Shown here piece after piece: positions 664 through 18,625 of a DNA stretch of 23,845 bases (within the stretch, counting starts at the first letter, position 1; the number at the start of each line of letters is the position of its first letter). A program made the position numbers and the translations under genes. The notes under the pieces were generated by a model. That model saw only the letters and a program-made list of their open reading frames with translations, was not told the origin of the DNA and made no database searches. Location of the stretch: positions 1 to 23,845 of the IMG/VR virus record IMGVR_UViG_3300020473_000124, one strand, 5' to 3'. The DNA comes from a virus.

Positions 664-3600
664 ATGGCACAAAAAGTAATTGACATAGGTACTGTTGGTG
701 ATGACGGAACTGGCGATACTATTAGACTTGCTGGTATAAAAATAAACGAAAATTTCACGGAAGTATACGACTTTGATGTTGTTGCATCAGATATAAGATT
801 TTCAGGTAACGAAATAATTTCACAATCTTCTAACGCAGATATTGTTCTTAAAACTGCAGGAGTGGGTAAAATTTTATTTGGTCCAGGTATAACACTTAAC
901 GATAATAATATTGAGGCTACTAGATCAAATGAAGATTTAATTTTCATTGCGGCAGGAACAGGAGCAGTTACAACACCTGCATTAAGATTCAACGACAATA
1001 ATATTGAAGGTGCAAGAACAAACGACAATATTAATATAATGCCTACTGGAACAGGTGTAATCAACATGGGTTCAGGAATCATTCTCGATGACAACAACAT
1101 TAAAACTGCAAGATCAAATGATAATTTAATACTGATACCAAGCGGTACTGGACAAGTTGTGATTGCAGGTGTAGGATTTAGTAGTGGTACAACAATTACT
1201 GCACTTGATTCTTCTTCAATCAATATAAATGAAAACTTAATATTGGACGGAACTTTAAATGTTTCAGGAGCATCAACATTTTCTAGTGCAGTTGCTTTAG
1301 ATTTAACAACTATTTCAGTAACAGGTTTAACAACTTTATCAACTTTATCAAACGGTGGAGCATCAACTTTTGCTGGCACAACAACAATTGACAATTTAAC
1401 ATTTAACGATAACATAATTGGCACATCATCAAATGCTGATATAAGATTAACTCCAGGCGGTACTGGTGTTGTCAATGTATCAAACATGACAATTGATTCA
1501 AGCATAAACTTGACAGACAATATATTAAAAGTAACAAGATCCAATGACAATTTAATTTTAACTGCAAATGGATCAGGCAGTGTAGAAATTTTATCAGGAA
1601 TGACCACAGCGGCAGTTACAACTATTGGTGATGTTGATATTACTGGAGACAAAACAATTACAGGTCAATTAGATGTTGAAGGAATACAAATTAAAGATAA
1701 TAAAATTTCTACAGATGAATCAAATTCAAACCTATTAATTTCAGGAAATTCAAGTGGTAATGTTGTAATTGATGATGTTGACATTGGGGGTGGTGCTATT
1801 GATGGCGTGGTTATTGGTGGTACAACACCAGCGGCAGGTACGTTTTCATCTTTAACAATATCAAGCAACACAATATCATCATCTGGTGTAACAATTACTG
1901 ATAACGAAATAACAGCAATTTTATCAAATGATAATTTAGAATTTACTGCGAATGGATCTGGAAATGTTGTAATTAATGAGTTAGCATTACCAAACGCAGA
2001 CGGCGGAACAGGACAATTTATAAAAACAGATGGGAATAAATCTTTATCCTTTGATACTGTACCTATTGCATTGGGTATAACTGCTATTCAAGATGCACAA
2101 ACTCTGATTGGATTCTCAAGTGTTACAGAACAAAGTCCTACTACGGCAGTAGGTGCTCATGAATCAATAACAAGTTCATCAAGTATTATTGATGAATGGG
2201 ATCAAACAAAATATGACAGTGCTTGGTATTTCACTCTGCAAAGACACGCAACAACAGATAGTTCAATTCACTTTTCAAGTTTCAAAACTTCTTTAGTGCA
2301 AGGAACAACAGATGGTAGTACATATGACGCTTTTGATGGAACTGGACAAATTATTAAAACAAAAGATGATGACTTTATATTAACAACTTCTTCTGATATT
2401 AGAAGTGCTGTAACCAAAGTAAGATTACTAGGTACAGCAGGACTTCTTTCAGATTCAACTGTTGCACCTGAAACTGCTTTAACATTTTGGAGAATTGGAT
2501 TAGGAGATAACGATTCATCTGGATGGAGTTCAGGACAGGCGGCAACTATTGTGGTTGCTGACTTAGATTCAGCGGCGGCAAACTTAGACACTTGGGCACA
2601 CGCAGATTACAGAGGTGCAAAATATTATATTTCAGTAAACAACACAACAACAAACGAAGTTCAAAACAGTGAAGTTATTATAGTTCATAACGGATCTGAT
2701 GCATTCATACAAGAATACAACACAATAGTTTCTAATTCTGCAAGTACTCCTTTAGCAACTTTCACAGCAGATATAAGCGGAAGTAATGTAAGATTAAGAG
2801 GTGAAAACGGAACTGCTGGTACTTGTAGAGTTACAATGTACAGAATTATATTAGCAGATGATGAATCAGATGCATCAAGCACATATGAAAATGTAATTGG
2901 TGCTCAAACAGTAAGCAACACAGCATCAACTACTATTGATACAAACTCATTTAGAGGAGATGTAAGTCCTGATATGAGTTCAGAAAAAGTTATTAATAGT
3001 TTTGCTAAAGCAGACTATGATAGTGTTTGGTATCACATGATACAAAAAGATATAACAAACACTGAATTTGTAATGAACAAATTATCAACCAACCACGGAA
3101 TTGATACTGACGGTAGCACTGTTAATGCAGGTGTTACTGATTCATCTGTTGTAAAAACTGGAGCAATGACTGATATTACAAATTTTGATGTTGGTATAAA
3201 CAGTTCAAATTTTGAATTAAAAGCAACAGCCGTTACTGATGGTTCAACCACAATAGCAAATGCAATATCTTATTATGCTATAGGTTTAGGTGACAACACG
3301 ACAACTAACACAACTGGAAAAATTGGTACACACGCAGGAGTAACATTTGGTGGAAACAATGAAACAAGAGTTGATACTGTTACAGCAACAGGAACTACAA
3401 CTTCTATTCTTTCTACACAAAGAACACTTGCTGAATTTACAGCATCGGCATATGATAGTGCATGGTTCTTAGGAGTATCAAACGATGTTACAAACTCTGG
3501 TCTTGCAACTTTCAAATATTCTGTTATGCACAACAATTCAGATGCATTTATTACTTCTTCATCAATCACAAGAACAGATGAAAGTCATAATCACTTAGAA

Positions 3601-6600
3601 ACTGACGCTGATATTAGTGGTAGTAATGTAAGGTTACTAGGTAATGGTGGAAGACTTGATGACTCTTCAAAATCAAATTCAAATACTATCGCATATTACA
3701 GAATTGGTTTGGGTGATAACGACTCTTCTGCATATACAAGTGATGATGGCAACGCAGATACCGATGTCGTTACAGTTGGTGGTATTCAAGAAACAGATAT
3801 TGACCGCGTGACGGCAAGTGGAACTCATGCCACACTATCATCAGCAGGCACAACAACCTGTGCAGAGTTCACAGCAGGACAATATGACGGAGCATTGTTC
3901 TATGTTGTAAACCGTGATGTGGCAAATGGTAGTTTTGAAACACAGAAAATATCTTTGGCTCACAACATAAATGATTCATTCATGACAAGTTCATCTGTTG
4001 TAAGCACCGATGAAGGTGACACTCATCCAATCTATACTACAGATATTGTTACAGCAGATGACAGCACTAGTAAGGTTAGATTAAGATCTACAGATTCAGA
4101 CGGTAGCACCGTGTCAGCAAACAACACAATGGCATACTACAGGATAGGTTTAGGTGATGACGACTCAACTGGACACGTTGGTGAGTTAGGTTTGGTCACT
4201 GATATAATGCACGTGGACATCATAGACAGTTCTGTTGTCACTCTTGATCAAATTGCTCATGGAGCACACGTAGGAGCGAAATATTTCATAACAGTGATCA
4301 ATCAGTCAACAGGTGAGACAGGCAACATAGAAGCATTATTAATACACGACGGCTCGGACGCATACATCACAACATACAACGAAGTTAATACCGGAGGTCC
4401 TGGAGATTCGACAACAACTGCTAATTCATTAATCACATTGACGGCAGACGTCAGTGGTGGATCTTTCAGATTAAGAGGTTCAGCGACAGCGGGTGGTAGC
4501 ACAAAAGTCATAGTCAACAGGGTAGTTGCATTTGGAGATTCAGAGTCCGATGAAACCAACTCTGACAGCACAAGAAAAATAATTGGAAACGTCACAGTAA
4601 GTAGTACTCCAACGGCGTTTGATACATTCATGTCCAGCGAAACTGATGCGGCGCACTATGTGATAACTGGACAAAACGGCTCAAATGAAAATTTCATGTG
4701 TGAAACGGTTGTTATAACTGATGGCACAACTGCATATGTATCACAAGGACCTAATGTAAGTTCTAAAAGTACAGATATGTTAGAAATAACTGCGGCAGTA
4801 TCCAGTGGAGTAGTAACTGTTAGTGCAAGTTCAACATCAGGTGGATCCACAACTGTGCAGGCCTTTGCGATAAAATTAAAAGCACCTGAAAGTTCTACAG
4901 CAACAATTGATAGTTGGTCGGCAAGTACATACAGAGGTGCAAAATACTTTATATCATTGAACAACACAGATAGCAACGAGATCAGTAATATTGAATGTAT
5001 GGTTGTGCATGACGGAACAACTGCTTTTATAAACGAATACAATGAACATTATAGTGGTAGTGCAAGTTTAATAACTTTATCTGCTGACATCAGTGGTGGC
5101 AATGTAAGATTAAGAAGTGTTGTTGCTCAAGATAACACAAGAGTTACTTTCTATAAAATAATTTTAGCAGATGCTGAAACTGATATAACTGGCGGAACCA
5201 ACGTAAATGTAATTGGTGATGTTACAGTATCTAGTACAGCAACAGCGGTAGATACTTTTGTAGATTCAGAGTATGATGGTGCTCATTATGTGGTTATTGG
5301 TTATAACAGTTCTGAAGCCGCGGCATCTATACAAGAAGTAACTGTGGTCACTGATGGAACAAATGCTTTTGTGGCACATGGTCCATTTGTAAGTTCTAAA
5401 GAAACAACTCAACTTGTTATGACAGCGGCACATGATGGTTCAAACACAGTAACATTATCAGCGGCATCTACTTCGGGTGGTTCTACTAAAGTAAATGCAT
5501 ACAGAATTCACATGAAGGCTCCTACTGGGCAAACAGATAATTTAGATACATGGGCAAAAGGAACATACAGAGGTGCAAAATATTATATTTCTGCAAAAGA
5601 AACTATAACTGGTTACACTAGCAATATAGAATGTTTAGTAGTACATGACGGAACAACTGCTTATATAAATGATTTTAATGAACATTTTTCACACGTATCT
5701 TTGGTAACTTTAACAGCAGATATTAGTGGAAGTGATGTTAGATTAAGATGTGCAGGTAATATACCTGATGTTAAAGTCAAATGGTACAGAATTTTATTAG
5801 GAGACAGTGAGTCTAATGCAACTGGTGCCGACACTGCACTTATGGATACAGTAACAGTATCAAGTACAGCAACAGCAATAGATACTTTTGTGGATACAAG
5901 TTACACAGGTGCTCATTATGTCATTGTAGGATATAATTCAGGTGAGGGATCAGCATCTATATCAGAAGCAACTGTTTTAACTGATGGGACAAATGCTTAT
6001 GTGGCACAAGGTCCTGAGGTATCAACTAAAGATTCAAGTCATCTTACACTAACAGCGGCACATGATGGATCATCAACTGTAACTTTAAGTGCGTCGGCTA
6101 GTTCAGGTGGCTCAACAACTGTTAATGCATTCAGAATACATATGCTACGTGGTGATGCATATTCTTATGACGTAGTAGATACTTTTGCACACGCAACTCA
6201 CCAGGCCGCTAACTATGTGATTGTTGGAAAAAATGCCGCTTCTGAATCTCAAATTGCAGAAGTAAGTGTAGTTTCTGATGGTACAAATGCTTTTCTTTTA
6301 CAGGAAGGTGCAAACATAAGCACACATTCAACTTCATCAATGGTAATGAATTTTTCAACAGCAGTAAACGGCAGTAATGTAGAATTAAGAGCACAAAATA
6401 ATCAAGAAAATACAGACACCACTGTTAATATATACAAACTACAATTAGGAAGAGCGGCAGGTAACCCAAGTTCAATTGCAACACTAGACAGTTGGTCAGC
6501 AACTACATATAGAAGTGCAAAATACACAGTTTCTATAAGTGATTCTGCCAGCGGGTCTTTAGGTTTATACGAAACTTGTGATGTCTCTGTTACTCATGAT

Positions 6601-6765
6601 GGCAGTTCAGCATACATATCAGTATTTGGAAGAATTACAAACCATACAGGCGATATGGTAGACTTTTCAGCAGATATAGACAGCGGAAATGTTCGTTTAA
6701 GAGGAACGATAAGTAATACTAATACACATACGGTAACCGTAGTAAGAAAGGTTATGAAAAACTAA
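664..6765 (+). CDS. Giant repeat-containing tail-fibre-like protein (2033 aa)
   Basis: No catalytic motif is visible; the protein is probably a very long virion fibre or adhesin. The N-terminus (IGTVGDDGTGDTIRLAGIKI, then NENFTEVY) is a module shared with the genes at 6767 and 8553, and is probably the anchor to the particle. Residues about 48-171 are four 31-residue repeats with a SNDN..L.PSGTG core. Residues up to about 470 remain similar to the 575-residue neighbour and include TPAAGTF, a motif I associate with phage fibres. From about residue 505 to the end I count about 13 copies of a larger domain. Each copy has a Y(R/D)(G/S)A(K/W/H)Y(F/Y/V) strand, usually followed by a HDGS/T(D/T)A(Y/F) turn and an ADISG..VRLRG strand. 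A receptor-binding or host-range role is inferred. The start is set by the AGGAGG site. Base composition shifts within the array (see findings). Confidence 0.8.
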   Translation: MAQKVIDIGTVGDDGTGDTIRLAGIKINENFTEVYDFDVVASDIRFSGNEIISQSSNADIVLKTAGVGKILFGPGITLNDNNIEATRSNEDLIFIAAGTGAVTTPALRFNDNNIEGARTNDNINIMPTGTGVINMGSGIILDDNNIKTARSNDNLILIPSGTGQVVIAGVGFSSGTTITALDSSSININENLILDGTLNVSGASTFSSAVALDLTTISVTGLTTLSTLSNGGASTFAGTTTIDNLTFNDNIIGTSSNADIRLTPGGTGVVNVSNMTIDSSINLTDNILKVTRSNDNLILTANGSGSVEILSGMTTAAVTTIGDVDITGDKTITGQLDVEGIQIKDNKISTDESNSNLLISGNSSGNVVIDDVDIGGGAIDGVVIGGTTPAAGTFSSLTISSNTISSSGVTITDNEITAILSNDNLEFTANGSGNVVINELALPNADGGTGQFIKTDGNKSLSFDTVPIALGITAIQDAQTLIGFSSVTEQSPTTAVGAHESITSSSSIIDEWDQTKYDSAWYFTLQRHATTDSSIHFSSFKTSLVQGTTDGSTYDAFDGTGQIIKTKDDDFILTTSSDIRSAVTKVRLLGTAGLLSDSTVAPETALTFWRIGLGDNDSSGWSSGQAATIVVADLDSAAANLDTWAHADYRGAKYYISVNNTTTNEVQNSEVIIVHNGSDAFIQEYNTIVSNSASTPLATFTADISGSNVRLRGENGTAGTCRVTMYRIILADDESDASSTYENVIGAQTVSNTASTTIDTNSFRGDVSPDMSSEKVINSFAKADYDSVWYHMIQKDITNTEFVMNKLSTNHGIDTDGSTVNAGVTDSSVVKTGAMTDITNFDVGINSSNFELKATAVTDGSTTIANAISYYAIGLGDNTTTNTTGKIGTHAGVTFGGNNETRVDTVTATGTTTSILSTQRTLAEFTASAYDSAWFLGVSNDVTNSGLATFKYSVMHNNSDAFITSSSITRTDESHNHLETDADISGSNVRLLGNGGRLDDSSKSNSNTIAYYRIGLGDNDSSAYTSDDGNADTDVVTVGGIQETDIDRVTASGTHATLSSAGTTTCAEFTAGQYDGALFYVVNRDVANGSFETQKISLAHNINDSFMTSSSVVSTDEGDTHPIYTTDIVTADDSTSKVRLRSTDSDGSTVSANNTMAYYRIGLGDDDSTGHVGELGLVTDIMHVDIIDSSVVTLDQIAHGAHVGAKYFITVINQSTGETGNIEALLIHDGSDAYITTYNEVNTGGPGDSTTTANSLITLTADVSGGSFRLRGSATAGGSTKVIVNRVVAFGDSESDETNSDSTRKIIGNVTVSSTPTAFDTFMSSETDAAHYVITGQNGSNENFMCETVVITDGTTAYVSQGPNVSSKSTDMLEITAAVSSGVVTVSASSTSGGSTTVQAFAIKLKAPESSTATIDSWSASTYRGAKYFISLNNTDSNEISNIECMVVHDGTTAFINEYNEHYSGSASLITLSADISGGNVRLRSVVAQDNTRVTFYKIILADAETDITGGTNVNVIGDVTVSSTATAVDTFVDSEYDGAHYVVIGYNSSEAAASIQEVTVVTDGTNAFVAHGPFVSSKETTQLVMTAAHDGSNTVTLSAASTSGGSTKVNAYRIHMKAPTGQTDNLDTWAKGTYRGAKYYISAKETITGYTSNIECLVVHDGTTAYINDFNEHFSHVSLVTLTADISGSDVRLRCAGNIPDVKVKWYRILLGDSESNATGADTALMDTVTVSSTATAIDTFVDTSYTGAHYVIVGYNSGEGSASISEATVLTDGTNAYVAQGPEVSTKDSSHLTLTAAHDGSSTVTLSASASSGGSTTVNAFRIHMLRGDAYSYDVVDTFAHATHQAANYVIVGKNAASESQIAEVSVVSDGTNAFLLQEGANISTHSTSSMVMNFSTAVNGSNVELRAQNNQENTDTTVNIYKLQLGRAAGNPSSIATLDSWSATTYRSAKYTVSISDSASGSLGLYETCDVSVTHDGSSAYISVFGRITNHTGDMVDFSADIDSGNVRLRGTISNTNTHTVTVVRKVMKN
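805..1176 (+). repeat. Four tandem 31-residue (93 bp) beta repeats
   Basis: Residues 48-171 of the 2033-residue protein repeat every 31 residues, with Asn anchors at 50, 81, 112 and 143 and a core like NNIE..RSND followed by PSGTG. The same register occurs at the same residue positions in the 575-residue protein, which indicates paralogy. The nucleotide copies have drifted. Confidence 0.8.
2170..6760 (+). repeat. Array of about 13 copies of a ~110-130 residue fibre domain
   Basis: Strand motifs of the type YDSAWYF, YRGAKYY, YDSVWYH, YDSAWFL, YDGALFY, HVGAKYF, TDAAHYV, YRGAKYF, YDGAHYV, YRGAKYY, YTGAHYV, HQAANYV and YRSAKYT occur in order along the C-terminal three quarters of the giant protein. 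From the sixth to the eleventh, GAKYF/Y units alternate with AHYV units, which suggests that a two-domain unit was amplified. One further copy forms the C-terminus of the 575-residue neighbour. Unit borders are approximate. Confidence 0.75.
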
Positions 6766-6766
6766 T

Positions 6767-8494
6767 ATGGCAAAACAGACACTAGCAGTAGGATCAAATG
6801 CAAATGACGGTACAGGTGATACACTAAGAGCCGCAATGATTAAAGTGAACGATATGTTCACTGAGGTTTATAATTCACCAGGTATTGCGGCAGATACTAT
6901 TTCAATATCAGGCAATGATATATCTGCTGTAAGAAGTAATGATGATTTGGTTTTTACTCCGTCAGGCACAGGTTCCGTAAGAACGAATGCATTAAGATTT
7001 AGTGGTAACAATATTGAAGGTGTTAGGTCCAATGACGACATTAATTTGGTGCCATCAGGAACTGGTAGTGTATTATTAGCCGGCATTAGAATTAATGATA
7101 ATAATATTGAAGGTGTTAGGTCAAATGATAATATTAATTTAATACCGTCAGGAACTGGTGCAGTTACAACACCAGCATTAAGATTCAATGGCAACAATAT
7201 TGAGGGTGTAAGATCCAATGATAACATAAACTTAATACCATCAGGAACAGGATCAGTTGTATTTGGTGCAATTAAAATTTCAGGAACTTCATTAAGTTCA
7301 GATGATTCAACTGCTATTAACATTAACGAAGGACTTATTGTTGACGGAACAGCAAACGTATCAGGCAATGTAACTTTGACTGGTGCTGTAACGGCGGAAT
7401 CAACTCTTGAAGTTACAGGAAATACTACTTTAGCAAATTTAACTGTTACAGGTGCTTCAACACTAACTGGTACATCAACAGTAGATAATTTAACATTCAA
7501 TGATAACATTATTGGTACATCATCAAATGCTGATTTACGTTTAGTGCCTGGTGGAACAGGAACAGTTGTTATTTCAAACTTAACTATTGATGACAATATT
7601 AATATAACAGATAACATTATTAAAACAACAGTATCAAACTCTAATTTACAATTAACAGGAAGTGGTTCTGGAACAGTTGAAGTAACGTCAGGATTAACAA
7701 CAGCGGCAATTACAACTGTTGGAAACGTTGGTATAACAGGAACAGAAACAATAACAGGACAACTAGATGTTGACTATGTAAGAATTAAAGACAATACAAT
7801 TACAACAAATGCTTCAGATGCCAATTTAGAAATTTCTGCAAATGGATCAGGTAATGTTATAATTGATGATGTTGATATAGGTGGAGGTGCCATTGACGGC
7901 ACAGTAATTGGTGCGGCATCGGCGGCGGCTGGTACATTTACTACTGTAACAGCAACGACATCTGTAACTATTGACGGAGTTACAATTACAGACAATACAG
8001 TTTCAACTAATGCTTCAAATTCTCCTTTAGAGTTAACAGGAAACGGTACAGGTTCAGTAACAATTAGTGGTTTTACTTTTCCAACATCAGATGGAAGTGC
8101 AGGACAGTTTTTAAAAACAGATGGACTTGGTACATTATCTTGGGGTAGTGCAGGAGCAACTTTAAGTTATTCAGATATTGCAGATGCTACAACCACTGTG
8201 GCTACTTCAACAACTTCTGTTATGAATACTTTTGCCCATTCAACTTATAGAAGTGCCAAATACTTTATATCAATAGTAGATGCTACAAACAGTAGATATG
8301 AAATTGTAGAGGCGAATGTTACACACGATGGCTCAGATGCCTATATCGCAACTTTTGGTTCAACAACAAATTACACTGGAGGTTTGTGTACATTTTCAGC
8401 AGATATTAGTGGTAGTAACGTAAGAGTTTTGGTAACAAATATATCAGATGCTAGTACAGTATTCAAGTTCCAAGTAACCTATATAGACGCATAA
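6767..8494 (+). CDS. Tail-fibre-like structural protein, paralogue of the giant fibre (575 aa)
   Basis: This is a short version of the preceding giant protein. It has the same N-terminal module (NANDGTGDTLRAAMIKVNDM), the same four 31-residue repeats at residues 48-171, and the same middle region containing NDNIIGTSSNAD and DDVDIGGGAIDG. It then has a single copy of the large C-terminal domain (YRSAKYFIS, HDGSDAY, ADISGSNVRV) where the neighbour has about 13. The ATG lies one base after the upstream stop and has no clear ribosome site, so translation is probably coupled. Tandem duplication followed by expansion or loss of the C-terminal array is the simplest origin. The virion-fibre role is inferred from repeats and context. 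Confidence 0.8.
   Translation: MAKQTLAVGSNANDGTGDTLRAAMIKVNDMFTEVYNSPGIAADTISISGNDISAVRSNDDLVFTPSGTGSVRTNALRFSGNNIEGVRSNDDINLVPSGTGSVLLAGIRINDNNIEGVRSNDNINLIPSGTGAVTTPALRFNGNNIEGVRSNDNINLIPSGTGSVVFGAIKISGTSLSSDDSTAININEGLIVDGTANVSGNVTLTGAVTAESTLEVTGNTTLANLTVTGASTLTGTSTVDNLTFNDNIIGTSSNADLRLVPGGTGTVVISNLTIDDNINITDNIIKTTVSNSNLQLTGSGSGTVEVTSGLTTAAITTVGNVGITGTETITGQLDVDYVRIKDNTITTNASDANLEISANGSGNVIIDDVDIGGGAIDGTVIGAASAAAGTFTTVTATTSVTIDGVTITDNTVSTNASNSPLELTGNGTGSVTISGFTFPTSDGSAGQFLKTDGLGTLSWGSAGATLSYSDIADATTTVATSTTSVMNTFAHSTYRSAKYFISIVDATNSRYEIVEANVTHDGSDAYIATFGSTTNYTGGLCTFSADISGSNVRVLVTNISDASTVFKFQVTYIDA
6908..7279 (+). repeat. Four tandem 93-bp repeats encoding a 31-residue beta unit
   Basis: Residues 48-171 of the 575-residue protein form four 31-residue units, each with NNIEGVRSND and PSGTG or close variants. 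In the DNA, the segment reading aatattga(a/g)gg recurs with ends at 7020, 7113 and 7206, a spacing of exactly 93 bases. Copies two to four are also very similar at nucleotide level, so this part of the array was amplified or homogenised more recently than the first unit. Confidence 0.85.
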
Positions 8495-8552: not shown

Positions 8553-10502
8553 ATGGCACAACAAACTATTGGTATAGGATCAGCGGCTAATGACGGCACA
8601 GGCGATCCATTAAGAACAGCATTTAATAAGATAAATGATAACTTTACAGAATTATATGGAACTTCAGCATTTGGACAACAAATAACACTTTCAGGAAACA
8701 AGGTTTCTTCTAATGTTACTAATGCAAATTTAGTTCTAGAAGCAAGTGGCACAGGTGCCATTGAATTTGAAGGATTTCAAATAAGAGATAATCACATTGA
8801 AGGAACTAGAAGTAACGAAGATATAAGAATAACTGCAAATGGTACAGGAAATATATTTGTAGGTGCAATCAAACTAAACGGTACAACTTTTAGTTCAGAT
8901 GACTCAACACTAATAACTTTTGCAGAAGGTGTTGATGTAACAGGTGCTTTAACAGGAACATCAGCATCTTTAAGTACTACTTTAGCAGTAACAGGTACAA
9001 CAACTTTAACAGGTGCAACAACTGTCAATAATACTTTGACAGCAAACTCAGTTACAACAAATGCCATTTCATCAAATGGTTCTAACGCAGATATTTCAAT
9101 ACAACCAAGCGGTACAGGTGACGTTGTAATCAGTGCTTTAAGAGTAAATGGCACAACATTAGATTCATCAGATTCAACTTCTGTTACAATAGCAGAAGCA
9201 GTTGATATCACAGGTGCATTAACAGGAACGTCAGGTAGTTTCAGTACAACATTAGGAGTAACTGGTTTAACTACTTTAAGTGGCGGAGCGACTGTGCTAG
9301 GCACTATGACAGCAGGTTCAGTGACTACAAATGCTATCTCATCAAATGGTTCAAATGCAGATATAAGCATTCAACCAAGTGGAACAGGTGATGTAGTATT
9401 GAGTGCATTAAGAGTAAATGGTACAACACTAGACTCATCAGATTCAACAGCAATTAATCTTGCAGAAAACGTAGATGTAACTGGAACATTAACCACAACA
9501 GATATTACAACAACAGGTAACATAGTAGTTTCAGGCAACATCGCACCAGCAACATTATCAATTGGTGACTTAAACATCACTGCAGATGGTTCAATCACTT
9601 CAGATTCAAATGGTGATATAGTTATTGATCCAGCAGGTACAGGTGCAATAGTATTAACAGGAACAGTAACTCACACAGGTACACAAAATACAACAGGACA
9701 ATTAAATGTTGATAATTTAAGAATTGATGGAAACACAATTTCTGCTCCATCATCAGGTGGTATTACTTTAACACCACAGGCTGGTTCAACAGTTGCATTA
9801 GGTGGAATTGCTACTGCTACTGAATTCCAAGCAACACTAGGTGAATTCACAACATTAAGAGCAGACAAAATTGAAAACGATACTTCAAACCATGCTTTAG
9901 AACTTGGAACACAAGGAACTGGTCCAGTTAAAATTGGACAAACTGAAATTTCAACAACTGCATCAACAATAACAGGTTTAGTTACAAATGGTGACATAAC
10001 AATCACTCCACAAGGTACAGGTGCAGTAACAACAGCAAACCAATTAACTTTAACAGGATCTTTTAAACAAGCAATACATACTTTCACAGGAGATGACGCA
10101 ATTACTGAGGCAGAACACGCAGGTAGAACATTATTACTTGGTGAAGTAGGCGGTAACGCACAGGTTACATTAACACTTCCAGATGCTACAGGTTCTGGTA
10201 CAACATATAAGTTTGTAGTAAGTGTAACAAACACATCTAACTACATTATTAAAGTGCCAGATGCTAATAACACTATTGACGGTATAATCACTTACTTAGA
10301 TTTAGATGGTACAGCAGTTACAGGATATGGAACAGCGGCGACTTCAGATACAATAACTTTGAATGGTACTACAACAGGTGGACTACTTGGTGATCATCTA
10401 GAATTAATTGATATAGCAACTGACCAATGGCACGTAAGAGGTTGTATGAGGGTTCCAACTAGTTCTAACCCAGCAACTCCATTTAGTGCTACTGTATCGT
10501 AA
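8553..10502 (+). CDS. Tail-fibre-like structural protein (649 aa)
   Basis: This is the third member of the local fibre family. The N-terminus (SAANDGTGDPLRTAFNKI, then NDNFTELY) matches the shared anchor module. The middle consists of beta repeats, including a 44-residue block duplicated 90 residues apart (from about residues 166 and 256) with one conservative I/L change. The C-terminal ~130 residues are different: they begin around GRTLLLGEVGG, include a TLTLPDATGSGTTYKF strand and end near DQWHVRGCM. This looks like a separate beta-sandwich tip domain. The gene has its own late-promoter candidate and ribosome site, so it is probably the first gene of a transcription unit. A fibre or appendage role is inferred; no enzymatic residues are recognised. 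Confidence 0.75.
   Translation: MAQQTIGIGSAANDGTGDPLRTAFNKINDNFTELYGTSAFGQQITLSGNKVSSNVTNANLVLEASGTGAIEFEGFQIRDNHIEGTRSNEDIRITANGTGNIFVGAIKLNGTTFSSDDSTLITFAEGVDVTGALTGTSASLSTTLAVTGTTTLTGATTVNNTLTANSVTTNAISSNGSNADISIQPSGTGDVVISALRVNGTTLDSSDSTSVTIAEAVDITGALTGTSGSFSTTLGVTGLTTLSGGATVLGTMTAGSVTTNAISSNGSNADISIQPSGTGDVVLSALRVNGTTLDSSDSTAINLAENVDVTGTLTTTDITTTGNIVVSGNIAPATLSIGDLNITADGSITSDSNGDIVIDPAGTGAIVLTGTVTHTGTQNTTGQLNVDNLRIDGNTISAPSSGGITLTPQAGSTVALGGIATATEFQATLGEFTTLRADKIENDTSNHALELGTQGTGPVKIGQTEISTTASTITGLVTNGDITITPQGTGAVTTANQLTLTGSFKQAIHTFTGDDAITEAEHAGRTLLLGEVGGNAQVTLTLPDATGSGTTYKFVVSVTNTSNYIIKVPDANNTIDGIITYLDLDGTAVTGYGTAATSDTITLNGTTTGGLLGDHLELIDIATDQWHVRGCMRVPTSSNPATPFSATVS
9048..9449 (+). repeat. 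Internal 270-bp duplication with a near-identical 44-residue block
   Basis: The block starting SVTTNAISSNGSNADISIQP occupies 9048-9179 and again 9318-9449, a spacing of 270 bases (90 residues). The proteins differ at one residue (I/L), while many third codon positions differ. A related version (SVTTNDITSNGSNADITIDP) occurs in the partial gene at the left edge of the window. Confidence 0.8.
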
Positions 10503-10731: not shown

Positions 10732-13242
10732 ATGTCGACACCAGTGTGGACAACCACAGCAGGTAAAATTGCGTCAATTGACGAACAAGTGGCATATTCG
10801 CTACAATTAGAAGCGAATACAGCCGATTCTACGGCTGTCACTTACTCCGTAATCGCAGGAAGCCTACCTTCAGGAATGGAACTTACTTCAACAGGCTTAC
10901 TGACAGGAATTCCAGCCGAGGTTTCGAAAAGAACTAGATATACCTTCGTCGTACGTGCCACGGCTGGAACAAAAATTACAGACAGAACATTTTATCTTGA
11001 TGTATCAGGTGCAGATGCTCCAACATTTACAACCGCTTCAGGACAACTTAAAATGGAAGATTCCACAAGAGTTGGACTTTATTGGATATTAGATGGTGGA
11101 CAAATGTCAGTTCAAATACAAGCAACTGATTCTGATACTGCGGCAGGACAACAATTAGTATATGAAATAGTACAAGGTGAATTGCCACCGGGTATTACTA
11201 TGTCAAGCACAGGATTAGTAACAGGAATAGTTCAATTAACAGAAGACATATTTGCTGATTCGCGTGGTGGTTATGATAATAATCAAGAAGCATACGATGA
11301 TGCAGTTTATGATAAAACAGTTACTACAAGAAGTATTTCAAGAAATTTTGATTTTATAGTTAGAGTTTCAGATGGTACAAGTTATGTAGATCAAAATAAT
11401 TCAATATTTGTTTATTCAGCAGATTATTGGAGAGTATCTAATACACAAATTACTATTGATATGACTATCCTTGATGGTTCACCTTTAACTATGGACCTAA
11501 GTGCTAATAGAAGACCAGTATTTAAAACAGCATCAGACCTTGGAACGTTTAGACACGACAACGCCTGTGTTATTAAAATTGATGTAGATGATTTTGATCC
11601 TTTACAAGCAGATTTAGAATATTCAATTCAATCAGGTGCATTACCTTCTGGATTAAACATTGATCTTAAAACAGGAGAAATATTTGGTACTCTGGCTAAA
11701 CAAGCCGCAATTGAAACCACTTACACTTTCACTGTAAGAGCAAATAGAGTTGTTAGTACAGGTATTCATGTTTTCACTGATCAAACTTTCACAATGAAAG
11801 TTATTGGAGAAATTGATATTGGAATAGCATTCTCAACTCCTACAGTTATTGGAACTTTGAGTGCTGACGTACCAAGCACATTATCAATTGTTGCAGTTGC
11901 AGAAAATACAAATAGAGTATTAACTTATGAAGTAACTTCAGGTTCTTTGCCAACTGGAATAACACTTTCTGAACAAGGTAATCTAATTGGAACTATTGAT
12001 CCGAGTGATTTCTCAGATTCAACAAGAGCATACACGTTTACAGTTTCAGTAAGTGACCAATACCAAGAAGCGGCAACATCAAAAGAATTTACTTTAAACA
12101 TTGATATACCATATACATCAATTGAATATGGAAGTATGGTTGGACATTCAACATCATTTATTGATCAAAATGTATTTTATAATATTGCACAAGATCCAAA
12201 CATAAACTCACCTGAGTACATATATCGACCAGAAGATACAAATTTTGGAATGAAATTAAATCCTGAAATGTTAATGATGGCAGGACTAGAAGCACAAACA
12301 CTACAAACATTCCAAAGACAAATGGAACAAAGTCACGCACCAAAAACTTTATATTTTGGAGAATTAAAAACTGCCATAGCAAAAGAAAGCGGTACTACAA
12401 AATACGAAGTTGTTTATATTGAAATGAAAGATGAATTTGTTAATAATAGTGGTACAGCAATTGGCGAATCAGTTACACTAAGAAGTGCAGTTGCAAAACC
12501 TATGATAGGTCCAAGAGCATCTACTACTGAAGCAACCACTGACATGAACGAATACGAAATTACTACAAGTGGTGGATTGGCATTTTCAACTTCTGGTTCC
12601 AAAGTAAGATATGCAAATCAATTATCGGCAGACTTAGACTTTATGGGAACACTTTATCCAAATGCAGTTGCAAATATGAGAAGCAGAATGAAAAGTTTAG
12701 GGCACAAAGAATGGGAACATCTACCTTTATGGATGAAAACAATACAAGCAGACAGCAAAGCACCATTAGGATTTGTATTAGCAGTGCCTATATGTTATTG
12801 TAAACCAGGCACATCTGCTCTATTAAAGAAAAGAATTAATGATAAATCGTTAACTTTTAGTAATATTCAATTTATTGTTGACAGATATCAAATTACTAAA
12901 AGTAAAATTACACCTGCTAAATTTACAGGTGATGGCTCAACTACTACATTTGAATTAGATGAGATTGTACATGAAGAAGATATTTTAGTTAAAGAAGGAA
13001 CTAGTACTGTTTACGTAGGAAATGGTGTATCAGCAGATAATAATATTGTTCCAACGTGGCTAACAGCAGACGGCACATTGAGATCAGCAGATCATGAATT
13101 TGGTATTGAACTTTCTCATAATACATCAACTGGTAAAACTACAATTACATTTACCAAAGAAGTACCGTCAGACGGCACTATTATTACAGTTGAAAGAGCC
13201 AACGATAAATATCTTAAATTTAGGAGCAAAGGAATATTTTAA
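10732..13242 (+). CDS. Ig-like (He_PIG-type) domain structural protein (836 aa)
   Basis: The N-terminal half holds four Ig-like segments recognised by a GSLPSGM.L...G.LTGIP signature: GSLPSGMELTSTGLLTGIP, GELPPGITMSSTGLVTGIV, GALPSGLNIDLKTGEIFGTL and GSLPTGITLSEQGNLIGTI. These fall at about residues 40-60, 145-165, 300-320 and 400-420. Such putative Ig folds are common in phage tail and adhesin proteins, where they bind surface carbohydrates or act as spacers. Residues about 470-700 are a different domain (YRPEDTNFGMKLNPEML, then QTFQRQMEQSHAPKTLYFGE). The last ~120 residues look like another beta domain that begins FTGDGSTTTFELDE. A tail or baseplate-associated structural role is inferred. 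It has its own late-promoter candidate and ribosome site, and its stop overlaps the next start (TAATG). Confidence 0.75.
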   Translation: MSTPVWTTTAGKIASIDEQVAYSLQLEANTADSTAVTYSVIAGSLPSGMELTSTGLLTGIPAEVSKRTRYTFVVRATAGTKITDRTFYLDVSGADAPTFTTASGQLKMEDSTRVGLYWILDGGQMSVQIQATDSDTAAGQQLVYEIVQGELPPGITMSSTGLVTGIVQLTEDIFADSRGGYDNNQEAYDDAVYDKTVTTRSISRNFDFIVRVSDGTSYVDQNNSIFVYSADYWRVSNTQITIDMTILDGSPLTMDLSANRRPVFKTASDLGTFRHDNACVIKIDVDDFDPLQADLEYSIQSGALPSGLNIDLKTGEIFGTLAKQAAIETTYTFTVRANRVVSTGIHVFTDQTFTMKVIGEIDIGIAFSTPTVIGTLSADVPSTLSIVAVAENTNRVLTYEVTSGSLPTGITLSEQGNLIGTIDPSDFSDSTRAYTFTVSVSDQYQEAATSKEFTLNIDIPYTSIEYGSMVGHSTSFIDQNVFYNIAQDPNINSPEYIYRPEDTNFGMKLNPEMLMMAGLEAQTLQTFQRQMEQSHAPKTLYFGELKTAIAKESGTTKYEVVYIEMKDEFVNNSGTAIGESVTLRSAVAKPMIGPRASTTEATTDMNEYEITTSGGLAFSTSGSKVRYANQLSADLDFMGTLYPNAVANMRSRMKSLGHKEWEHLPLWMKTIQADSKAPLGFVLAVPICYCKPGTSALLKKRINDKSLTFSNIQFIVDRYQITKSKITPAKFTGDGSTTTFELDEIVHEEDILVKEGTSTVYVGNGVSADNNIVPTWLTADGTLRSADHEFGIELSHNTSTGKTTITFTKEVPSDGTIITVERANDKYLKFRSKGIF
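13228..13233 (+). promoter_or_regulatory. Shine-Dalgarno site inside the upstream gene
   Basis: AAAGGA lies 8 bases before the ATG at 13242, inside the last codons of the Ig-like gene, and supports the TAATG-coupled start. Confidence 0.55.
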
Positions 13243-14084: not shown

Positions 14085-14720
14085 ATGTCAAACAGTTTTA
14101 GTTGGAAAACAAAATTCAAATCAATCATTATAGTAGATGGAGAATTATTTTCTAACGAGTATAATGTTAAACTTCATATAACTCCACACACAGCAAATTT
14201 AAAAGAACAAACAGAATATTTTGAAAGATTAAAAAATCTTTTTGAAATGGTATTTGCAAATACAATTACCACTTGGAGAGAAGAAAAACTTTATCATACA
14301 TTATCTAAAACTTCAAACAATAGATTTATTGAATTACCAAAGCCGCCATACGATCAAATAATGTCAGCAGTGTGTTTTTGTAAAGCAAATTCAGTATTAG
14401 ATTCGGTAATCACTGTTAGCAAATTAGAATTAAGCAGTTGGCAAGGCGATGGTATTACATATACAGTTGACAAAGACAGTAAAGAACTGTTATTATTAGA
14501 TACACCCAATTGGTTTTCAGAAAAATACAACAATTTTGATCCATGGTGGTTAAGGGCAGACACGGCAACATATGACAAAGAACTTGATAAAGGCATATAC
14601 ACAGGACACTTTAGTTGGAAAGCAGAAAAAATACCAGTTGACAAGAAGCACGAGTACCATGCTAAAATATTTGAGTTTAACCCAAAGGTTTTAGATGGTG
14701 GCAAAGACAAAAATAAATGA
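14085..14720 (+). CDS. Protein of unknown function, probable late/structural (211 aa)
   Basis: I do not recognise the family. The protein starts MSNSFSWKTKFKS and is rich in Trp and other aromatics (TTWREEKLYHTL, SSWQGDGITYTVD, NFDPWWLRAD, HFSWKAEK). It has no signal peptide or membrane segment. I chose the ATG at 14085; two TTG codons immediately upstream (14079, 14082) could extend it by two residues but are less likely starts. There is no clear ribosome site. The 3' end overlaps the next gene by 26 bases in another frame. Its position directly after the tail genes suggests a baseplate or tail-assembly role, which is inference only. Confidence 0.7.
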   Translation: MSNSFSWKTKFKSIIIVDGELFSNEYNVKLHITPHTANLKEQTEYFERLKNLFEMVFANTITTWREEKLYHTLSKTSNNRFIELPKPPYDQIMSAVCFCKANSVLDSVITVSKLELSSWQGDGITYTVDKDSKELLLLDTPNWFSEKYNNFDPWWLRADTATYDKELDKGIYTGHFSWKAEKIPVDKKHEYHAKIFEFNPKVLDGGKDKNK

Positions 14721-15216
14721 GACAGGTGATTGCATTTTTACAGAACAAGATGCAATAGATATTCTTTATAACAATCCAGATTTTGACATTTCTAAAATAT
14801 TTTTTGATGATATTCAAAAATATAACGATAGTCTAAATGCAACTGGTTTAGATTTTCCAATGTTAAAGACTATACCACGAAGACCTACACCAGCAGAGTT
14901 TGACAAAAGAAATTGTGAACAATGGCATATGCCTGGAAAATATTATAAAATTAATGTGTTACAATGGTTATTAGAAAAGTGTCAAACAGATGAGGAAAAA
15001 ATACGTGTGCAAAATGAATATGATCTATTTGAAAAGAAAAACTTTATTAGGGTTTTACAGTTTTTAATATATTTTGTAGATACTTTAAGAGAGAATAATG
15101 TAGTATGGGGTGTGGGCAGAGGTAGTAGTGTAGCAAGTTTTTGTTTATTTTTAATAGGTGTACATAAAATAAATCCACTACTATACAATTTAGATTACAC
15201 TGAATTTTTAAGATGA
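14695..15216 (+). CDS. DNA polymerase III alpha-like palm fragment (173 aa)
   Basis: The C-terminal half matches the start of the bacterial Pol III alpha (DnaE/PolC) palm. A helical NEYDLFEKKNF...FVDTLRENN stretch leads into VVWGVGRGSSVASF (residues 136-149) and then INPLLYNLDYTEFLR at the C-terminus. In DnaE the corresponding motif is G.GRGS...S, ending with DPL.Y.L.FERFL, and the Gly-Arg-Gly-Ser loop contacts the incoming nucleotide. The phage protein stops just before the Asp-x-Asp metal-binding strand, so it cannot be a polymerase by itself. There is no PHP, fingers or tau-binding region. The N-terminal ~100 residues are less clear but include a PRRPTPAEFDKRN stretch. It may be a regulator or decoy of host Pol III, or a domesticated remnant; the function is unknown. 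The frame is clean and starts inside the preceding gene. Confidence 0.7.
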   Translation: MVAKTKINETGDCIFTEQDAIDILYNNPDFDISKIFFDDIQKYNDSLNATGLDFPMLKTIPRRPTPAEFDKRNCEQWHMPGKYYKINVLQWLLEKCQTDEEKIRVQNEYDLFEKKNFIRVLQFLIYFVDTLRENNVVWGVGRGSSVASFCLFLIGVHKINPLLYNLDYTEFLR

Positions 15217-15643: not shown

Positions 15644-16087
15644 ATGGGACAAATAGAAGATCTACAGAATAAAGGTTTCGGATCACACGGTGGTAAACAA
15701 TACACTGTTGATAACGATATTACTCCACTTAAAAAAAGAGTGCTTGTATCTGATATGCACTTTGGTGAAACAAGATCTAAAGGCGGTATTATACTTGTAG
15801 ATGACGATGGATCACAATCAGGTATCCATCCTAGATGGGCAAAAGTATATGCTATTGGAAATAAACAAGATGATGTTAAAGTTGGAGAATGGATATTAGT
15901 TTCACATGGTAGATGGTCTAGAGCATTCAAAGTTAAAAAAGACGGTGTTGAATTAGAAGTAAGAATGATAGATGAGAATGATATCTTACTTGTATCAGAA
16001 ACCGAACCAGAGCAAAATAGAAAACAGGCTGGGTATGTCAACACTGGTGGTATGGAGCAGATGACTAAACTACCCGGCAATGACTAA
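15644..16087 (+). CDS. GroES/gp31-like co-chaperonin (147 aa)
   Basis: It would cap the host GroEL ring during folding of phage proteins such as the major capsid protein, the job of T4 gp31. The GroES fold is recognisable: PLKKRVLV at residues 28-35, then the mobile loop GETRSKGGIIL at 41-51. That loop closely parallels the cellular ETKSAGGIVL loop, whose last hydrophobic residues dock into GroEL. It is followed by WAKVYAIGN and VKVGEWILV, the usual 'vGD.Vlv' strand, and NDILLV near residue 112. It is longer than typical GroES (about 97 residues) at both ends. It has no ribosome site and a strong sigma70-like promoter close to the ATG, suggesting early, host-polymerase transcription. It overlaps the next gene by 8 bases. 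Confidence 0.8.
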   Translation: MGQIEDLQNKGFGSHGGKQYTVDNDITPLKKRVLVSDMHFGETRSKGGIILVDDDGSQSGIHPRWAKVYAIGNKQDDVKVGEWILVSHGRWSRAFKVKKDGVELEVRMIDENDILLVSETEPEQNRKQAGYVNTGGMEQMTKLPGND

Positions 16088-16943: not shown

Positions 16944-17187
16944 AAAATTACATACTTGTTACGTCTGTCATAAAACTTTTTTTAATGGCGTGTATTGGTT
17001 TGATTCTTTATACTACAACAATTTTGATAAAAGAATTATAAGACCGTTTTGTGGACCAATATGTTCTAATCGTTATAGAGATACCACAGATGTAAATGAT
17101 TGGCCAGACAGAGAAAAACCTTTTCCAAAAGGAGATGAATGGAAATTAATACAAGATATAGATTATATAGATTATGAAACGGATTAA
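16936..17187 (+). CDS. Small putative zinc-binding protein (83 aa)
   Basis: Four cysteines are arranged as C8-x2-C11 and C39-x3-C43 (CYVC and CGPIC), a spacing typical of a small zinc ribbon or treble-clef finger. The C-terminal half is acidic (DWPDREKPFPKGDEW, then IDYIDYETD). No other motif is recognised. The ATG overlaps the stop of the upstream gene by 8 bases, and its own 3' end overlaps the ParB-like gene by 14 bases, so it is part of a tightly coupled accessory operon. Zinc binding is inferred from cysteine spacing. A role in nucleic-acid or protein contact is possible. Confidence 0.6.
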   Translation: MVKKLHTCYVCHKTFFNGVYWFDSLYYNNFDKRIIRPFCGPICSNRYRDTTDVNDWPDREKPFPKGDEWKLIQDIDYIDYETD

Positions 17188-17554
17188 AACAAAAAGAACT
17201 TTTGTACCAATAGACAAACTTGTAACTATGGCTGAAATGGGTCTAGGTGCAGTGCGTCCTTTAAACAAAGAAAAAAGAAGTTGGATAGCAAAATTAGTTA
17301 AAGACGGAATATGGGATCCAATATTAGTTACACCAATTAAAGATTCAGGATATTATTTGCTAACAGATGGTTGGCACAGAGTACAGGCGGCAAAAAAATT
17401 AAAACAAAAAGAAATTGAAGCATTGCCAGTACCAGCAGATATTGGTTTAAGCATGGCAAAAGCAAACAAAATACTTCGAGACATAGACCGCGAATATGGT
17501 TTTAAACTGAAATGCAGTGATATAATTGGCCAATGGGCCTTTTATAAAGATTGA
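17174..17554 (+). CDS. ParB N-terminal-like (sulfiredoxin-fold) protein (126 aa)
   Basis: The segment FVPIDKLV…VRPLNKEKRSW…GIWDPILVTPI…YYLLTDGWHRVQAAKKL follows the ParB/Srx N-terminal domain: an input strand, a helix, the 'pi.V.p' strand and the DG.HR..AAK.L motif (residues 65-76) that in related proteins binds and hydrolyses nucleotides. The C-terminal ~45 residues are helical (MAKANKILRDIDREYGFKL). It lacks the ParB DNA-binding HTH, so plasmid-type partition is unlikely. Stand-alone ParB-N proteins in phages have been linked to nuclease, transcription or kinase-like activities, and which applies here is unknown. The stop lies within a sigma70-like promoter that serves the next gene. Confidence 0.7.
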   Translation: MKRIKTKRTFVPIDKLVTMAEMGLGAVRPLNKEKRSWIAKLVKDGIWDPILVTPIKDSGYYLLTDGWHRVQAAKKLKQKEIEALPVPADIGLSMAKANKILRDIDREYGFKLKCSDIIGQWAFYKD

Positions 17555-17584: not shown

Positions 17585-18625
17585 ATGCACAAACGTATAG
17601 GATTTTGCTGTCAGTGGTATCATCATGATCAGACACTAAAAACAAAACAATTAGAAGAAATACAAAGACCTTTTAACACAAAAGCAACCACAGTTCGTTG
17701 GTTAAACGAACACAAAGATCAAGCAGAAGCAAAACTTGATATGGTTGTTAAACACAATATTGAATCACTTAAAAAACTTGTTGCAAAAGTAGGTACACTA
17801 CCACTAGACCGTAGAATGTGCAGACTAGGATCTCCCGTACTACCTATGGCAACAGAAAAAACTTGGCGTTATTATATAGACTCTCCAGACATTGTACGTT
17901 ATTGTGAAAAACATTTTGCAGAAGTGGGCGATCTTGCTCGTAAACTAGATGTAAAAATATCTTTCCACCCAGGACAATTTACTGTACTTGCATCTGAGAC
18001 TCCAGACATTGTAGATCGTAGCATAGATGAATTTGAATATCATGTTAACATGGCACGTTGGATGGGTTTTGGTAAATCATTCCAAGACGGTTGCAAGATT
18101 AATGTACACATCTCAGGCAGACAAGGACCAGAAGGTATTATAAAAGTATTACCTAGACTATCACCTGAAGCAAGAAATCTTATTACAATCGAGAACGACG
18201 AAATGGGACATGGATTAGATGCAAGTTTAGAACTAGAAAAACATCTTGCACTTGTTATGGACATACACCATCATTGGATACGTGATGAGGAATACATTGA
18301 GCCTAATGATGACAGAGTTAAAAGAGTTGTAGACTCGTGGCGTGGTGTTAGACCTACCATGCATTATTCTTATTCTCGAGATGAAGCACTTGCACCTGCA
18401 CAGTTGGGTAACAAAACACATACAGAAATGCACAACATCAAAGATTTACTAGACAGAGGTTGTAAAAAACAAAAACTTAGAGCACATTCAGACTTATTAC
18501 CAAACGCAAAGGTAAATGATTGGGCATTGTCGTTCAATGAACAATTTGACATACAAGTAGAAGCCAAATCTAAAAATCTTGCCGCAGAACAATTATATAG
18601 ACAAAGAGAATCAAATATCATATAA
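17585..18625 (+). CDS. uvsE: UV-damage endonuclease UvsE/UVDE (346 aa)
   Basis: This enzyme nicks DNA 5' of cyclobutane dimers and 6-4 photoproducts, starting alternative excision repair. The TIM-barrel family motifs occur in order: RIGFCCQ at the N-terminus, FHPGQ (127-131), NVHISG (173-178), TIENDE (201-206), MDIHHH (225-230), HYSYSR (260-265), HSD (301-303) and VEAKSK (325-330). His128, His175, Glu203, Asp226, His229, His260, His301 and Glu326 are the likely metal ligands, by analogy with characterised bacterial UVDE. Length is close to the usual ~300-350 residues and the frame is intact. T4 uses the unrelated DenV for this purpose; a UVDE in a sunlit-ocean phage is a natural substitute. 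The likely promoter abuts the ATG. Confidence 0.9.
   Translation: MHKRIGFCCQWYHHDQTLKTKQLEEIQRPFNTKATTVRWLNEHKDQAEAKLDMVVKHNIESLKKLVAKVGTLPLDRRMCRLGSPVLPMATEKTWRYYIDSPDIVRYCEKHFAEVGDLARKLDVKISFHPGQFTVLASETPDIVDRSIDEFEYHVNMARWMGFGKSFQDGCKINVHISGRQGPEGIIKVLPRLSPEARNLITIENDEMGHGLDASLELEKHLALVMDIHHHWIRDEEYIEPNDDRVKRVVDSWRGVRPTMHYSYSRDEALAPAQLGNKTHTEMHNIKDLLDRGCKKQKLRAHSDLLPNAKVNDWALSFNEQFDIQVEAKSKNLAAEQLYRQRESNII

Follow-up and report, generated by a model that had tools for sequence, protein, structure and literature searches.

The locus described here raises the question of how thirteen copies of one domain are ordered within a single fibre chain, and of what governs their number. It lies in IMG/VR virus record IMGVR_UViG_3300020473_000124, a 23,845-base fragment of a marine virus genome, all of which was analysed (hereafter the window), and consists of a long fibre gene (664..6765, plus strand; 2,033 residues) directly followed by a shorter paralogue (6767..8494, plus strand). 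An earlier sequence-only reading had reported about 13 copies of one domain in the long protein, with GAKY and AHYV types alternating in the middle and a single copy in the paralogue, and had proposed copy-number change as an obvious way to vary fibre length or receptor avidity. Copy number does vary among relatives, as shown below, but only by one unit of each of three types at a time and in an order that simple tandem duplication does not produce, and those duplications that the window carries are of old date; the idea of a freely slipping dial is not supported.

Number, types and order of the units

Units were cut by eye, aligned and made into a profile, which was then iterated on the loci of two further scans. 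The profile finds 13 domains in the long protein, from about residue 509 to the C-terminus (weakest independent E-value 4e-26), and one in the paralogue (at about 8219-8491), bearing out the earlier counts for both genes. Because the profile was built from those very units, these E-values show coherence only; the matches of the iterated profile to 172 distinct open reading frames (ORFs) of the window and related loci are a better sign that the unit is real. Types were taken, unsupervised and with position ignored, from a tree of 520 units, in which clades C (121 units, support 0.999), A (128 units, 0.889) and B (128 units, 0.999) each hold four window units, and the remaining 143 units, called T, are always last in their ORF. 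Together, ORF calling, unit profile and type profiles give the long gene the arm word CACCCABABABB followed by T, which is parsed as four nested trios; the alternation seen earlier is genuine and corresponds to units 6-11 (A B A B A B), one part of this longer word.

All units lie on the plus strand. The outer layer comprises unit 1 (type C, 2188..2580), unit 2 (A, 2581..2988) and unit 12 (B, 6172..6480); the second layer, unit 3 (C, 2989..3423), unit 10 (A, 5539..5877) and unit 11 (B, 5878..6171); the third, unit 4 (C, 3424..3855), unit 8 (A, 4906..5247) and unit 9 (B, 5248..5538); and the cap, the sole contiguous trio, unit 5 (C, 3856..4239), unit 6 (A, 4240..4611) and unit 7 (B, 4612..4905). 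Unit 13 (T, 6481..6762) is the terminal tip, assigned by tree and type profile. Units 1 to 5 were placed by profile, tree and nested parse, units 8, 10 and 12 by type profile and nested parse, and units 6, 7, 9 and 11 by these two together with structure alignment, units 6 and 11 matching the T4 gp9 C-terminal domain and unit 7 a tailspike C-terminal domain (see below). Structure-aligned ranges begin 15-20 residues ahead of the by-eye borders, so the true domain borders lie upstream of those given.

The survey of relatives covered IMG/VR, the window included, used type profiles for C, A, B and T, and took in three more scans after the rule described here was first seen. Sequence-identical ORFs were dropped before counting, as were loci L001-L004, L012-L023 and L027, which repeat others; 39 ORFs cut by a locus end were counted apart, and X residues were read as A in profile searches. 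Complete ORFs in the first survey had 1, 4, 7, 10, 13 or 16 units (100, 12, 8, 18, 5 and 1 ORFs, respectively) and nothing between. Across the 82 complete distinct multi-unit ORFs, copy number was 3n+1 (4, 7, 10, 13, 16), or 3 without T, and the numbers of C, A and B were equal in every one; all 39 truncated ORFs were compatible.

Order is equally restricted. A rule in which each trio is written CAB, CA[..]B or C[..]AB, with further trios nested inside, fits all 82 complete ORFs. The words were CAB-T (27 ORFs), CACCABABB-T (17), CACABB-T (15), CAB without T (13), CACCCABABABB-T (5), CCABAB-T (2), and CCCABABAB-T, CCACABBAB-T and CACCACACABBBABB-T (one each). At 3-15 units the rule permits 1, 2, 4, 8 and 16 words, out of 6, 90, 1,680, 34,650 and 756,756 possible equal-count words. 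Only seven kinds of neighbour were seen (CA, AC, CC, AB, BB, BA and BT), and a B-C border occurred at none of 610 unit borders; under a first-order chain of these borders, the chance of obtaining a nested word would be 0.25, 0.056, 0.015 and 0.004 at 6, 9, 12 and 15 units. Scans made after the rule was noted contributed 37 of the 82 ORFs and just one new word (CCCABABAB, at L129), which fits. The ORFs are related, falling into 25 clusters by shared 5-mers, and therefore do not count as 82 independent events; arm words nevertheless underwent no fewer than 16 changes on the T-unit tree (69 ORFs) and no fewer than 19 on the shaft tree (82 ORFs), always within the rule, and recombination may inflate this count. 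For the sequences seen, the rule of count and order is nearly certain; 3 of the 13 complete T-less CAB ORFs were typed by few bits only (margin 3-10: L180, L182, L183).

A second fibre family ending in CAB without T was seen at L024:9947-12910 (minus strand), on a contig of the same virus kind, and at loci L164-L191; its 10 complete ORFs are all exactly CAB, some typed by few bits. At L161:3792-5900 and L162:3343-7122, CAB is followed by 91 or 135 residues of non-T sequence, perhaps a different tip.

Beyond these loci, a pattern search of genome contigs gave 12 matches, none of them confirmed, and a scan with the 16-unit protein matched nothing besides itself. Among INPHARED phages, 4, 2 and 5 records matched in three unit searches, and by profile S-SM2, C48C1, DSL-LC02 and AG-345-O18 hold one T unit each (the C48C1 gene is cut by the record start; AG-341-P01 was left out); arms may occur in isolates despite these single-T matches. 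When 60 CAB trios were scanned, Pfam gave no match, NCBIfam one chance-like match, whereas among PHROGs 24 trios matched phrog_6005, a virion structural protein family (best E 1.4e-9), and 3 matched phrog_967, a connector family; the trio of the window itself had no match in any of the three databases.

Fold and predicted packing

Structures were predicted with AlphaFold2 for the nested block C[CAB]AB (units 4-9; 707 residues, 32 rows) and, as a control that breaks the trios, for units 8-13 (620 residues, 32 rows). The expectation was fixed before the control result was known: a fall in the predicted template modelling score (pTM) to 0.35-0.55 should the trios be important, and a value near 0.73 should neighbouring units merely pack. 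The nested block reached a mean predicted local distance difference test score (pLDDT) of 84.1 and a pTM of 0.73, and the control, at a similar mean pLDDT (83.8), a pTM of 0.44, within the range foreseen for trios that matter. The five control models varied more than those of the nested block (pLDDT 83.8 to 70.7), which, with the inclusion of T, makes units 8-13 a fair but imperfect control. A defined packing of the nested block is thus supported by prediction.

Compared with 989 solved chains, the nested model matched T4 gp9 first (1qex_A residues 169-284, Z 13.7, root-mean-square deviation 2.4, 113 aligned residues, at unit 6), followed by 9f4a, a Klebsiella phage relative (Z 12.1), and by two tailspikes, one at unit 7 with Z 9.3 and the other with Z 9.2; for the control model gp9 again came first (Z 12.6, at unit 11). 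Alignments to gp9-like or tailspike domains were obtained for units 6, 7, 9 and 11, and all 13 units fall in one profile, so the unrelated folds that would have undone the idea of a single repeated domain were not seen. The unit is accordingly predicted to have the fold of the T4 gp9 C-terminal domain, by structure match for A and B and by sequence profile for C and T. A gamma-carbonic anhydrase, the sole match of a trio profile among solved-structure sequences (E 0.02), was taken as chance.

Among the BFVD matches listed for the nested model, a 1,062-residue protein of Synechococcus phage S-SKS1 scored a template modelling score (TM) of 0.45 and A0A8S0I641_1 scored 0.42, with the rest at or below 0.15. 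By its length the former is a candidate for SWZG_00164, a baseplate wedge subunit encoded at L200:40098-43286 (minus strand), in which the unit profile matches weakly at about 540-645 and 680-770; this giant baseplate protein perhaps holds a distant gp9-like trio.

Gain and loss of trios and the proposed architecture

The repeat in the window is an old one: units of one type are 26-63% identical in amino acids, the longest direct repeat in the gene is 294 nucleotides at 73% identity, no period above 10 nucleotides is listed by Tandem Repeats Finder in the unit region, and synonymous divergence (dS) between same-type units is 0.73-2.51. Simple slippage was ruled out because of the unit counts, the order and these dS values. 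A single tandem duplication of a nested word gave another nested word in 0 of 852 cases, and a contiguous deletion in 34 of 837; paired duplications, of C and AB or of CA and B, do yield nested words. Growth by one trio needs such a matched pair, or a contiguous CAB inserted inside an older trio. The best natural pair is L061 (CCABAB) and L129 (CCCABABAB), whose matching units share 93-99% DNA identity, while L129 has one extra C before the cap and one extra AB after it, on opposite sides.

When C, A and B units were placed in separate trees, they grouped by layer, with support (C/A/B) of 0.98/0.94/0.87 for the outer layer, 0.95/0.90/0.91 for the second, 0.99/0.96/0.93 for the cap and 1.00/1.00/0.84 for the third layer of 13-copy ORFs, and this grouping spans ORFs of 7, 10 and 13 copies (clades with support of at least 0.8 and one layer index per copy number were listed; L035 was left out of the labels). 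By identity, the set absent from 10-copy relative to 13-copy ORFs was C4, A8 and B9, the third layer, in 39 of 85 pairs. Pairing C, A and B on a first-in, first-out basis was considered and is less favoured; it needs C4, A8 and B11 to be absent together, found in 13 of 85 pairs, and it needs C1, A2, B5 or C3, A4, B6 to be absent from 4-copy ORFs, found in 2 and 25 of 600 comparisons, against 402 of 600 for absence of C1, A2, B6.

The reading that we consider probable is that each C-A-B trio forms a pseudo-trimer of gp9 type from a single chain, and that these are stacked as discs in a side arm beside a homotrimer of T. The ancestor would have been a gp9-like fibre ending in one trimerising T domain, like the neighbouring paralogue, and by analogy with gp9 the three chains of a T-only fibre would together form a terminal homotrimer of this domain. 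Between shaft and T, the long protein would carry an arm of 3n domains of T's fold, with C, A and B as three specialised forms, one of each packing into a disc, which would be the counterpart, within one molecule, of a gp9-type homotrimer. The chain would leave the shaft through the C units of successive discs, turn at the contiguous C-A-B cap, and return through the B units, closing each disc on the way back and ending in T, with A placed on the outward or the return path. The discs of the window would then be units (1,2,12), (3,10,11) and (4,8,9) and the cap (5,6,7); if the T homotrimer sits on the fibre axis there would be three arms per fibre, and gain or loss of a disc would always involve one unit each of C, A and B together. 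We infer that the nested order suits side arms better than a longer shaft, and the most likely role of the arm is added receptor-contact surface at the fibre tip.

Several observations weigh against this reading, or limit what carries it. The control was a single one, shorter than the nested block (620 against 707 residues), and includes T at lower pLDDT; T, which would normally trimerise with other chains, may account for some of the fall to 0.44. A pTM expresses confidence that parts are placed, not where they are placed, so the disc itself is something that we infer, and a homotrimer lies beyond what a monomer prediction can show. The control model matches the same two BFVD proteins as the nested model, at TM 0.30-0.31 against 0.42-0.45. 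For L129 against L061, the extra set by identity is C1, A6 and B9, which is not one layer, so that exchange or two steps are likely. Other sets absent from 10-copy ORFs were C4, A8, B7 (18 of 85 pairs) and C4, A8, B11 (13 of 85), and in the step from 10 to 7 copies (255 pairs) the set indicated corresponds to no layer in 73 pairs, to the cap in 59 and to the second layer in 14. Identity matching between ORFs is only partly clean, and the layer reading is supported in many cases, not all; exchange between layers would explain this.

Alternative readings were weighed against the same evidence. If the arm were a string of equivalent beads, with slippage or unequal crossing-over letting their number drift so as to tune fibre length or avidity, tandem domains of one family with varying copy number would be expected, as found; yet 2, 3+T, 5, 6+T, 8, 9+T, 11, 12 and similar numbers are absent from the 82 complete ORFs, type counts are equal, order follows a rule, and nested words have low probability under a first-order chain, so that in its simple form this account is refuted by the counts and overall we hold it to be very improbable. 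Less improbable, though still quite doubtful, is that the rule is a by-product of gene growth, with CAB cassettes recombining into older ones and no matched protein trio needed. Nested words do result when a contiguous CAB enters the innermost trio at its C/A or A/B border, and units of one type resemble each other closely enough for recombination, but insertion at B/C or B/T borders, giving CABCAB, should be as easy and B-C was never observed; moreover, in 13-copy ORFs a conserved cap divides the third layer (4 .. 8,9), and the contrast in pTM between nested block and control would not be expected.

Two further alternatives accept matched trios. Discs might form between chains, the C of one packing with the A and B of its homotrimer partners, which would need equal counts too; tail fibres are usually homotrimers, according to PMC10253068, and the count rule by itself would not separate trios within a chain from those between chains. 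Against this, one chain of units 4-9 is already predicted at the higher pTM, and a last-in, first-out order would be expected of one out-and-back chain and is not called for between chains, which leaves discs between chains unlikely. The other alternative differs from single-chain stacked discs in role, not in structure: because the C-terminal trimer of T4 gp9 is the attachment site of the long tail fibre, each pseudo-trimer might be a socket holding a further fibre and the protein a multi-fibre hub. The fold match together with that role of the gp9 domain speaks for sockets, while no partner fibre was identified and stacked layers would leave only the cap and the arm sides free; we regard sockets as a possibility of low but real weight.

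Should single-chain stacked discs be right, gene structure would spell out a constraint of folding as a formal grammar, with sharp and cheap tests of assembly; there would be a route from a homotrimer to layered single-chain pseudo-trimers; and marine phages would multiply fibre-tip surface without extra genes. The copy number of a fibre repeat need not be a free dial: here it changes in threes and at two places in the gene at once, and from the rule it can be foretold which arms ought to turn up, and which ought to be missing, in long reads from natural populations.

The surrounding locus and known systems

Ahead of the units (664..2187, plus strand), the long fibre has an N-terminus that resembles a baseplate anchor, with residues 5-49 matching T4 gp10 (E 8.7e-5, phmmer against PDB sequences), and a repetitive shaft. 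When the whole long protein was searched in this way (E up to 1), gp10 was matched and gp9 was not, and it was therefore not filed as gp9. The paralogue has the same kind of N-terminus and shaft, about 54% identical to the long protein over residues 1-487, and its N-terminus matches phrog_677 (E 8.5e-8), labelled baseplate wedge tail fibre connector. By its N-terminus the long protein is predicted to be a baseplate-anchored fibre of the gp10/connector kind, a match that speaks to kind and not to location in the virion. A T-only ORF follows 94 of 115 arm-bearing ORFs with T, duplicates kept; 10 are not so followed and 11 lie too close to the locus end. A 196,581-base contig (G001) encodes the same paralogue and breaks off within the long gene; it also encodes T4-type virion proteins, with gp23 at most 73% identical to isolates, the best among the matches listed being Sinorhizobium phage Phosso.

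Other features of the window were noted. Tandem arrays of period 93 and 270 (78% matches) lie at 6989-7248 and 8922-9448, in the shafts of two neighbouring fibre genes, and from these arrays shaft length may have changed more recently than the arm. Further downstream are an 836-residue protein (10732-13242) with four stretches matching the Ig-like family He_PIG; a 173-residue ORF (14695-15216) that matches a 171-residue DNA polymerase family end to end, as if the polymerase gene were split; GroES/gp31-like and ParB-like proteins (15644-16087 and 17174-17554); and a UvdE-like UV endonuclease (17585-18625) beside a D-isomer 2-hydroxyacid dehydrogenase (18650-19846), the latter possibly a host-derived metabolic gene.

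Among known systems, the C-terminal domain of T4 gp9 trimerises gp9 and holds the long tail fibre as its attachment site, according to PMC10253068. The likeness to gp9 (1qex) is that of the unit fold, its C-terminal domain 169-284; gp9 has one such domain per chain and forms a homotrimer, whereas here 13 of matched types stand in one chain, at 12-14% identity. The cyanophage proteins named gp9 baseplate wedge tail fiber connector (for example those of P-RSM4 and S-SM1) are about 42% identical to the paralogue over their N-terminal ~105 residues, where the match stops, and no arm was matched in them. SSM2_107 of Synechococcus phage S-SM2, a phage tail fiber-like protein, ends in a single T unit 49% identical to that of the paralogue, without C, A or B. 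In Acinetobacter phage tailspikes the C-terminal domain is attached to an enzymatic beta-helix; those of 6c72 and 6e1r have a similar fold (Z 9.2-9.5), one per chain. A pseudo-trimeric claw made from one phage tail protein is described for the distal tail protein of Mycobacteriophage Mysterious; it is short and loop-rich (residues 1-136) and faces a trimeric fibre, with no nested layers of repeated domains described for it (PMC13252515).

No description of a nested, count-balanced array of trimer domains was found in the literature searched, with subscription papers outside its scope. If the discs are seen, the array may represent a new principle of architecture, which on balance we expect: a strict nested grammar, an out-and-back chain, stacked discs gained or lost as three non-neighbouring units, and branched arms encoded by one gene, in which a chain would hold as many as 15 domains that form pseudo-trimers. 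A simple tandem-repeat fibre would have one kind of unit in any copy number, whereas all 82 complete ORFs have 3n+1 or 3 units with three types in equal number. The fold, the kind of N-terminus and a small pseudo-trimer in a phage tail protein are known already; the nested, balanced array is the part that would be new.

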